Source: Candidatus Omnitrophota bacterium
Lineage (GTDB): Bacteria > Omnitrophota > Omnitrophia > Omnitrophales > JACROU01
Length of the DNA stretch: 64,000 bases
Assembly: GCA_029261035.1 (NCBI GenBank)
Contig: JAJDCD010000012.1
Coordinates: forward strand, 208,719 to 272,718
Direction: 5' to 3'
Part shown: in pieces, positions 20,187-64,000 of the stretch
Numbering within the stretch: position 1 is the stretch's first letter
How the letters are laid out: every line of letters starts with the position of its first letter
The notes under the pieces: model-generated
Database searches by the model: none
What the model was told of the DNA's origin: nothing
The model's input: the letters and a program-made list of their open reading frames with translations, nothing else
Position numbers and translations under genes: made by a program

Positions 20187-20194
20187 TTCTGTTT

Positions 20195-20220
20195 TCAGAC
20201 CTCAGACTTCTGACTTCAGG
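20195..20220. repeat. Heptanucleotide-period repeat at the oligopeptidase stop codon
   Basis: TCAGACC-TCAGACT-TCTGACT-TCAGG repeats with a 7-nt period. The stop codon and last few codons (LKSEV) of the 20202-22253 gene are read from this repeat on the minus strand. It is of the same sequence type as the array at 59056-59128. Confidence 0.7.
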
Positions 20221-25826: not shown

Positions 25827-26040
25827 GTTTCGTTATGAATAGCATAACGAAACACCCTAAACTCCAGAAAGAATATGGGCTCGATGCCCATCTTCTTTCA
25901 ACGCCTCAACACCCAACAAGCGTTCATAACTTAAAGGAAAATATTGCATCCCCGCCGCGAGTTCACAAAAGGGACAGTCACCGTAGGTGACAGTCCCTTT
26001 TGTGCTGTCTGAGCGCCGGGGATGCAATATTTTCCGAACA
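25827..26040 (-). repeat. Composite three-hairpin intergenic element, copy 1
   Basis: Hairpin A (25827-25853) has stem GTTTCGTTATG. Hairpin B (25867-25899) has a stem GAAAGAA.ATGGG capped by GCTCGATG. Hairpin C (25938-26033) has outer stem AAAATATTGCATCCCCG, an asymmetric internal loop (CCGCGAGTT opposite CTGTCTGAGCGC) and an apical stem CACAAAAGGGACAGTCACC. The whole fills the gap between metG (stop 20 nt away) and tatD. The apical part carries a GTGACAGTCAC-type palindrome. About 80 nt separate it from the heptamer array at 25720. Confidence 0.8.
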
Positions 26041-32480: not shown

Positions 32481-32590
32481 CGACTGTCACCAGGCTGCGA
32501 TCAGCAGACCATGGTGACTGTCACTATTATGCTAAAAGAAAAATGACAGTCACATTCAACGATCTTTATAAATCCGGGTGACAGTCACTT
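32481..32590. repeat. Cluster of four GTGACAGTCAC half/whole palindromes after ileS
   Basis: GACTGTCAC (32482), GTGACTGTCAC (32514), TGACAGTCAC (32544) and GTGACAGTCAC (32578) occur in about 107 nt. They can pair with each other in several ways and could act as the ileS 3' end. No ORF is present. Confidence 0.7.
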
Positions 32591-32638
32591 TTAAAACCAA
32601 ACGCGCGAAGCGACTCCTCTCAACAAAGGATGTCTAAT

Positions 32639-32793
32639 AAAATAAACAGGAGCTCGATGTTCCTGTTTATTTTCACCCTCAACACCCCACAAGCTTTTGC
32701 ATTCAAAACAAATGGGTATCCTCCGCCGCGAGTTCACAAAAATTGATTTTTATTTTTGTGCTGTCTGAGCGCCGGAGGATACCCATTTGTTTT
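32639..32793 (-). repeat. Composite hairpin intergenic element, copy 2 (hairpin A missing)
   Basis: Hairpin B (32639-32673) has a perfect 13-bp stem AAAATAAACAGGA with loop GCTCGATGT. Hairpin C (32705-32793) has outer stem AAAACAAATGGGTATCCTCCG, the same internal loop (CCGCGAGTT opposite CTGTCTGAGCG) and apical stem CACAAAAAT. Its stem sequences differ from copies 1, 3 and 4 but remain complementary. It lies 19 nt after the flippase stop, between convergent genes. Confidence 0.8.
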
Positions 32794-55658: not shown

Positions 55659-55852
55659 GTTTCGTTATTTAATTAATAACGAAACACCCTAAACCCCAGA
55701 AACAATATGGGCTCGACGCCCATCTTGTTTCAACCCCCTACACACCCCACAAGCGTTCATAACTTAAAAGAAAATGCTGCATCCCCGCCGCGAGTTCACA
55801 AAAATCGCATTTCAATTTTTGTACTGTCTGAGCGCCGGGGATGCAGCATTTT
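55659..55852 (-). repeat. Composite three-hairpin intergenic element, copy 3
   Basis: Hairpin A (55659-55685) has stem GTTTCGTTATT. Hairpin B (55699-55731) has stem GAAACAA.ATGGG and loop GCTCGACG. Hairpin C (55771-55852) has outer stem AAAATGCTGCATCCCCG and the same internal loop. Compared with copy 1, G/C swaps in hairpin B and the TGCTG/CAGCA change in hairpin C are compensated on the other arm. It lies in the 420-nt divergent gap between GT39 and the plus-strand GT-C gene, which holds no ORF. Confidence 0.8.
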
Positions 55853-55896
55853 CCAAACAAACCAAACCATTTTCCCCTACCCCAACATAAACCTTC

Positions 55897-59045: not shown

Positions 59046-59055
59046 GAGAACCTCT

Positions 59056-59128
59056 GAAGTCAGAAGTCGGAAGTCAGACAACAGAAAAAAGCTATTTCTG
59101 ACTTCTGTCGTCTGACCTCTGTCTTCAG
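59056..59128. repeat. Inverted pair of heptanucleotide arrays between eno and ftsB copies
   Basis: GAAGTCA-GAAGTCG-GAAGTCA-GAC (59056-59079) faces TCTGACT-TCTGTCG-TCTGACC-TCTGTCT-TCAG (59097-59128). The two arms can form a long imperfect hairpin just after the eno stop (59132), and could act as its 3' end. Confidence 0.75.
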
Positions 59129-61135: not shown

Positions 61136-61166
61136 TAGCGGATAGCGCATAGCGTTTAGCGGATAG
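61136..61166 (-). repeat. Heptanucleotide array upstream of purN
   Basis: TAGCGGA-TAGCGCA-TAGCGTT-TAGCGGA-TAG, four and a half 7-nt units, ending 18 nt before the purN start codon. Confidence 0.75.
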
Positions 61167-61247: not shown

Positions 61248-61436
61248 GTTTCGTTATTTAGACAAATAACGAAACACGATAAACCCAGGCAATAAAAGTG
61301 CTCGATGTACTTTTGTTGCCAACCCTCTTCATCCCCACTAGTTTTTACAACTTTCAAGGAAAACAGTGTGCCCTCGCCGCGAGTTGCGCAGGCCAAAGGC
61401 CGAGCATGTCTGAGCGCCGAGGGCACACTGTTTTCC
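61248..61436 (-). repeat. Composite three-hairpin intergenic element, copy 4
   Basis: Hairpin A (61248-61275) has stem GTTTCGTTATTT. Hairpin B (61288-61320) has stem GGCAA.AAAAGT and loop GCTCGATGT. Hairpin C (61358-61436) has outer stem GGAAAACAGTGTGCCCTCG with the same internal-loop motif (CCGCGAGTT opposite TGTCTGAGCG) and a different apical stem (GGCC/GGCC). Stems B and C share little primary sequence with the other copies yet pair fully. It fills the 352-nt gap between rsmI (stop 33 nt away) and purN. Confidence 0.8.
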
Positions 61437-63874: not shown

Positions 63875-64000
63875 TAGCGGATAGCGCATAGCGTTTAGCG
63901 TTTAGGGCCTTTTGTCTTAAAAACTATCTTCTTCCTACAAAGGAAGCTGATAAAATACAGACATTTGGATTCCTATACGCTCCACGCTAAACGCTCTACG
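63875..64000 (-). repeat. Facing heptanucleotide arrays upstream of atpD
   Basis: TAGCGGA-TAGCGCA-TAGCGTT-TAGCGTT-TAG (63875-63905) and an inverted array ATACGC-TCCACGC-TAAACGC-TCTACG (63975-64000, continuing past the window) frame about 70 nt. The arms are partly complementary. No ORF is present. Confidence 0.7.

Follow-up and report, generated by a model that had tools for sequence, protein, structure and literature searches.

Within a 64,000-nucleotide stretch of the genome of a Candidatus Omnitrophota bacterium (the whole of the DNA analysed, hereafter the window), four copies of a composite hairpin element carry fixed loops on stems that differ in sequence but remain complementary. The question raised by this locus is whether such compensatory change is the mark of a structure under selection, be it RNA or single-stranded DNA, or the product of a process that keeps the two arms of a hairpin alike. 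A first-pass annotation, made from the sequence alone, had placed the four copies, and direct re-location of hairpins A, B and C recovered all of them at the positions it gave and with the loops and stems it described. On the + strand, hairpin A (copies 1, 3 and 4; copy 2 is without it) is followed by hairpin B with its TCGAY loop, a C-rich linker and hairpin C. In the window copies, hairpin C is built of arms of 19-22 nt enclosing CGCGAGTT, an inner hairpin D, and TGTCTGAGCG; its size including D is about 75-100 nt, and the distance from B to the core is about 51-64 nt in most copies. The features are as follows, bit scores being those of the covariance model described below:

25827..25853, + strand: hairpin A of copy 1 (GTTTCGTTAT...ATAACGAAAC)
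25867..25899, + strand: hairpin B of copy 1, loop TCGAT
25936..26035, + strand: hairpin C of copy 1, conserved core flanked by 20-nt arms (70.5 bits)
25956..25963, + strand: core strand 1 of copy 1, CGCGAGTT
25964..26005, + strand: variable inner hairpin D of copy 1 (long form)
26006..26015, + strand: core strand 2 of copy 1, TGTCTGAGCG
32639..32673, + strand: hairpin B of copy 2
32705..32793, + strand: hairpin C with D of copy 2 (86.9 bits)
55659..55685, + strand: hairpin A of copy 3
55699..55731, + strand: hairpin B of copy 3, loop TCGAC
55770..55853, + strand: hairpin C with D of copy 3 (79.1 bits)
61248..61275, + strand: hairpin A of copy 4
61288..61320, + strand: hairpin B of copy 4
61358..61436, + strand: hairpin C with D of copy 4, GCGCAG...CGAGCA type (73.6 bits)

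The D hairpin of copy 1 (25964-26005) is enlarged by a nested GTCACC/GGTGAC hairpin, and several copies in the genome likewise have a match length of 96 nt. Words resembling GTGACTGTCAC adjoin copy 2 at about 32512-32600. Two further repeats were observed in the window: the direct repeat TAGCGGATAGCGCATAGCGTTTAGCGGATAG, an iterated TAGCG word, at 61136-61166 and 63875-63905, and a 33-nt inverted repeat, TTCTGTTTTCAGACCTCAGACTTCTGACTTCAG, at 20187-20219 and 59054-59086, the two halves of which are 88% complementary and 38.8 kb apart. Where GTTTCGTTAT...ATAACGAAAC is absent, the A position upstream of hairpin B is often occupied by another variable-stem palindrome (L018, L021, L022, L025, L028) with a fixed centre, e.g., CACATGTG or CACATGCG; hence, a third free-stem hairpin with a conserved loop seems to exist at this position.

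The four copies belong to a larger family. The motif TGTCTGAGCGC occurs four times in the window, a count reached in 0 of 100 shuffles, and the exact pattern CGAGTT-N(10-40)-TGTCTGAGCG has 37 matches in the genome as opposed to 0 for a reversed-pattern control. A covariance model, the check proposed by the first-pass annotation, was trained on 28 cross-phylum copies; it identified 56 copies in the 2.7 Mb genome, exactly the four among them in the window, and gave matches in 9 of the 56 genomes searched, these being the window's own and eight others with 1-12 copies each. One of the genomes, G071, which is 94% complete, has 11 copies by the model at the same loci as G006. The core with complementary arms was found in at least the Atopobiaceae (Olsenella, Thermophilibacter and others), Omnitrophota (further carriers at loci L048, L051, L080, L091 and L094), Eisenbacteria, Planctomycetota and Gammaproteobacteria. 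Among the matches listed, the planctomycete and gammaproteobacterial occurrences are single MAGs, Olsenella and other Atopobiaceae have up to 15 copies per genome, and a loose core pattern is present, in some cases by chance, in 29 of the 121 Atopobiaceae genomes sampled. The true extent of the family exceeds the matches listed, and the core may have spread horizontally. An element borne by viruses or plasmids was considered and rejected, as viral, plasmid and phage collections yielded no genuine element: 0 of the 126 core matches on viral contigs passed the arm test, three weak arm scores being seen, and no plasmid or phage record was covered to at least 80% by one Olsenella core query. Local multiplicity was also noted. 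An Omnitrophota genome (G069) holds 18 near-identical cores, and in genome G000, three near-identical copies lie inside 5.7 kb at a contig end (L286, C16:1-9000) and a further copy stands at the beginning of a 4.6-kb contig (L287, C19), these last apparently tied to local duplication.

Across phyla, the core consists of CCGCGAGTT, a variable hairpin D, and TGTCTGAGCGCC, set within long complementary stems. The asymmetric internal loop that it forms, CGCGAGTT opposite TGTCTGAGCG, is nearly invariant and separates the variable D from a long outer stem whose sequence is free; the fixation of the same core in different phyla points to selection on, or recognition of, this internal loop. It contains a possible tandem G-A mismatch beside a GCG/CGC helix, which by eye would fit a k-turn; this reading was set aside because the other side of the loop has 2-3 against 5-6 nt and not the standard 3-nt bulge. 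A permuted topology, TGTCTGAGC-short loop-GCGAGTT in a variable stem, occurs in a few Gammaproteobacteria, one Omnitrophota genome and some viral contigs (L362, L366, L368, L360, L361, L363, L337 and L338, and viral L345, L346 and L347; mostly GNA-closed), and the genes around it look mixed, with no functional pointer. If the two topologies are related, conservation applies to the two-stranded internal loop as a unit, regardless of which of its ends is closed.

The compensatory nature of the stem changes, as had been claimed from the four copies, was upheld across the genome. Hairpin D was cut out of the input such that the outer stem alone was counted, and 97.0% of cells in the 35 C stems were paired, with 15 of the 20 pairs changed on both sides. 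Two-sided changes occupied 225 cells compared to a shuffled mean of 63.2 (0 of 500 shuffles as high) and at most 55 in slid controls; the covariation score of 0.826 fell to 0.206 on shuffling and to 0.192 or less with partners slid. The 23 B stems of the genome behaved alike (95.3% of cells paired; 90 two-sided changes against a shuffled mean of 24.5, 0 of 500; covariation score 0.798 versus 0.201 shuffled). Leaving aside the few stem positions that adjoin the core, most show all four Watson-Crick types. An absence of significant covarying pairs, which the first-pass annotation had named as telling against its claim, was thus not what was found, the covariation of both C and B lying far above that of shuffled stems.

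How these stems change was seen most directly at orthologous sites. Loci L107 and L130, with right flanks that are 95% identical, differ by 11 double and 0 single pair changes; for L087 and L130 (98% flank identity), the counts are 8 double, 0 single and one other, and for L102 and L136 (95%), 15 double, 0 single and one other. An ispG-proS site, the gene names being read off the sequence, was detected in 29 of 31 genomes searched. Its panel (10 of 13 second elements) gave 169 double compared to 51 single or other stem changes, and 65 adjacent double changes where 500 shuffles had a mean of 26.5 and a maximum of 41, counts that are descriptive as the species pairs are not independent. At a separate orthologous site, both arms shift in length jointly (26, 27, 28 and 29 nt) and are still complementary. 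Clustered double changes and coordinated arm lengths are the pattern expected if one arm is copied onto the other, the route by which template switching has been proposed to generate and preserve hairpins (PMC8794818). From this pattern, the arms of the C hairpin appear to be homogenised by template switching; strong selection against mismatches could be an alternative means of keeping them complementary. Two neighbouring elements at L388 are fused, with a match between the new left arm and the second element's right arm; as a case of arm copying, this is suggestive only.

With respect to the strand that folds, mismatches of the G-T and A-C types are equally rare in the window genome (14 and 13, respectively, of 689 pairs); an RNA strand would give an excess of one, and there is consequently no sign of it. 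In the Atopobiaceae, G-T exceeds A-C (60 to 27, a single stem position accounting for 23 of the G-T cases), and tolerance at the RNA level is therefore possible in that group. Outside the window genome, 12 of 18 D triloops are GNA, and no GNRA or UNCG tetraloop was present among the D variants scored. GNA triloops closed by C-G are unusually stable in DNA, and the loop composition thus mildly favours single-stranded DNA as the folded form. The view of the first-pass annotation that the covariation marks a structure under selection, whether RNA or single-stranded DNA, stands in part: the core fixed across phyla argues for selection or recognition, whereas the step from covariation to selection is unsafe given the equal G-T and A-C counts and the clustered double changes at orthologous Olsenella sites. 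As template switching yields such double changes, covariation alone is no proof of RNA function.

Three other explanations were weighed. In the window genome, the copies are intergenic (by a simple ORF caller on the stretches around them), and the genes flanking those of the window are ordinary (MetRS, TatD, IleRS, a polysaccharide synthesis protein, a formyltransferase and a tetrapyrrole methylase). Of 24 cases, most have the stop codon of a facing gene 8-33 nt from the end of the right arm. Orientation is that of the contig majority in 53 of 56 copies, and a T-rich stretch (5 or more T among the 8 nt that follow the stem) stands on the gene-sense side of 15 of 36 copies and on the other side of 0 of 36. 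Together with the strong covariation of C and B, these features would suit a 3'-UTR RNA element on the strand opposite that of the window (5'-CGCUCAGACA-D-AACUCGCG-3'), serving as an mRNA terminator or exonuclease barrier with a protein-bound loop and stems under ordinary compensatory evolution. This explanation is nevertheless unlikely. There is no wobble bias to that strand, the double changes are clustered, and a whole genome has merely 56 copies; in the Atopobiaceae, the T tract is found in 2 of 73 copies on one side and 0 of 73 on the other, inverted pairs are frequent with no orientation rule, and one ispG-proS element lies upstream of proS. Fifteen Atopobiaceae copies overlap a called ORF, and such ORFs may be spurious in these GC-rich genomes. 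In the window genome, orientation also agrees with the local GC skew in all but one of the copies examined, and an orientation bias is the expectation for insertion into the lagging-strand template. The strong bias, together with a habit of extragenic hairpins with a mid-stem mismatch and inverted pairs, would accord with membership in, or kinship to, the REP/RAYT family, with hairpins recognised and moved by single-strand Y1 (HUH) transposases of the TnpA-REP type. Y1_Tnp was indeed detected in all five of the Atopobiaceae tested and in most core-bearing Omnitrophota. Against this, no core lies near any Y1 locus examined, Y1_Tnp was undetected in 7 of the 16 core-bearing genomes (drafts, G071 included), and REP stems are conserved in sequence while those of the C hairpin are not, which together with the missing stem-base tetranucleotide described below makes a REP/RAYT origin quite improbable.

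A third explanation is that the core and D insert together and, in doing so, copy some 20 nt of the flanking target as an inverted sequence, which gives a perfect, site-specific stem. In one Eisenbacteria genome, three of the four copies (L302, L303 and L304) have an identical core and D on different, unrelated perfect stems, the fourth having a stem in common with L304. Gradual compensatory drift hardly explains this; the cores have either been homogenised or are mobile, with the stem gained on arrival at each site. Also in favour, L289, L296 and L298 in G069 have similar right flanks, and their left flanks switch precisely at the boundary of the core (compared with L288, L292-L295, L297, L299 and L301). 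Three element-free orthologous sites keep parts of one arm, with L125 and L057 holding one arm only. Such empty sites fit inverted target copying but could equally be deletions, the polarity being ambiguous, and slippage deletion between short direct repeats also leaves one-armed sites (CCCC repeats, L138). Furthermore, stems persist between species at several sites and change only in part, so that an origin of the stem from the site is unneeded. No cognate enzyme was found by protein comparison or by association with Y1_Tnp, and an all-vs-all comparison of the proteins around the elements, with the resulting clusters annotated in part, had no cluster that stood out as an inter-group mobile gene. 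A self-made stem of this kind is hence improbable. In an Olsenella panel, an element pair is present in one species set and absent from others, and one element at L384 was most likely lost by deletion.

The claim that the element matches no recognised RNA family held on comparison with Rfam, which at gathering scores returned only tRNAs, for the window as for 13 element loci; under permissive settings, sub-threshold matches far below the gathering scores overlapped hairpins A and B of copy 1. Integron attC sites are likewise excluded as a class, as had been claimed, with R'/R'' boxes (GTTRRRY / RYYYAAC) in 0 of 36 and 0 of 73 copies (0 of 109) on both strands. These sites are recognised as folded single strands and have conserved short motifs with a variable terminal structure, and in this they resemble the C hairpin, which differs in having neither R boxes nor cassettes and in its long variable stem outside the conserved motif. 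The streptococcal BOX and other composite intergenic repeats are built of modular A-B-C hairpins, as here, but their stems are conserved in sequence and they are confined to one lineage. Among the closest systems are the REP/BIME/REPIN sequences with TnpA-REP (RAYT), which are also numerous short extragenic hairpins with conserved stem mismatches, found as inverted pairs and near gene ends (PMC8266576; PMC3116915). Of the features that define REPs (taken from PMC8266576), the guide tetranucleotide is wanting at the stem base of the window-genome copies (GTAG in 0 of 36 left and 0 of 36 right; GGAG in 4 of 36 left) and is infrequent in the Atopobiaceae (GTAG in 7 of 73 left and 8 of 73 right; GGAG in 3 of 73 left), and conservation of the palindrome within a genome fails, the C and B stems taking nearly all pair types. 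The C hairpin differs further in its free outer stem, its greater length (about 75-100 nt with D), a core conserved between phyla, and a Y1 transposase that neither adjoins it nor is detected in every genome. The earlier statement that no REP class is recognised in it thus holds for the defining features and not for the habit, in which the element is extragenic, dispersed and arranged in inverted pairs resembling BIMEs; it is REP-like in habit, yet cannot be filed as REP. Hairpins shaped by template switching share its instantaneous compensatory multi-base stem changes (Monttinen and Loytynoja 2022, PMC8794818), that case concerning a mutational process on known RNA genes and the present one a dispersed bacterial family with a fixed internal loop. 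Selfish-looking, nested, intergenic palindromes with fixed loops and differing stems are known from Volvox organelles (PMC2670323), and the double-hairpin elements (DHE) of Allomyces, as cited therein, share these traits; as far as described in that source, both are organellar, with simple 3-5 nt loops (TAAA/TTTA) and no two-stranded internal-loop core. Among the matches listed in a literature search on the core string, papers containing part of it were unrelated by title and abstract, no paper with the permuted string was found, and a search on Olsenella palindromes gave nothing relevant.

With its dispersed intergenic copies, a patchy distribution over several phyla, a core that hardly varies, stems that vary in all four Watson-Crick types and arms that change in concert, the C hairpin is best read, at a probability of about 0.55, as a new REP-like family of dispersed extragenic palindromes in which the core is recognised and the arms are homogenised by template switching. 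On this reading, template switching or hairpin-templated repair in the course of replication, with one arm copied onto the other, would be the main means by which the outer arms stay complementary, and selection would bear on the core and the capacity to fold. The core would have spread horizontally and be recognised as a folded single strand by a putative trans-acting DNA-processing protein. In the window genome, the element bears two additional variable-stem hairpins, B and A, and lies shortly after stop codons with its orientation fixed. The empty sites could equally be deletions, and mobility of the element is accordingly putative. A further proposal, speculative and rather unlikely, is that only the core of ~60 nt (internal loop plus hairpin D) is mobile, a new stem being formed from the target wherever it lands and the arms of that stem being constantly re-copied from each other. 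If true, this would represent a widespread class of miniature mobile DNA and imply an enzyme with a folded single strand as its substrate.

The family is a repeat common to distant phyla, and clustering by sequence would miss it because the greater part of every copy can vary freely. It also provides a naturally replicated example of bacterial hairpin arms evolving in concert, and its panels of species at individual sites permit a direct test of template switching versus compensatory selection. The family serves as a caution that covariation statistics can be near-perfect without RNA function, and its fixed internal loop points to a putative recognition protein.
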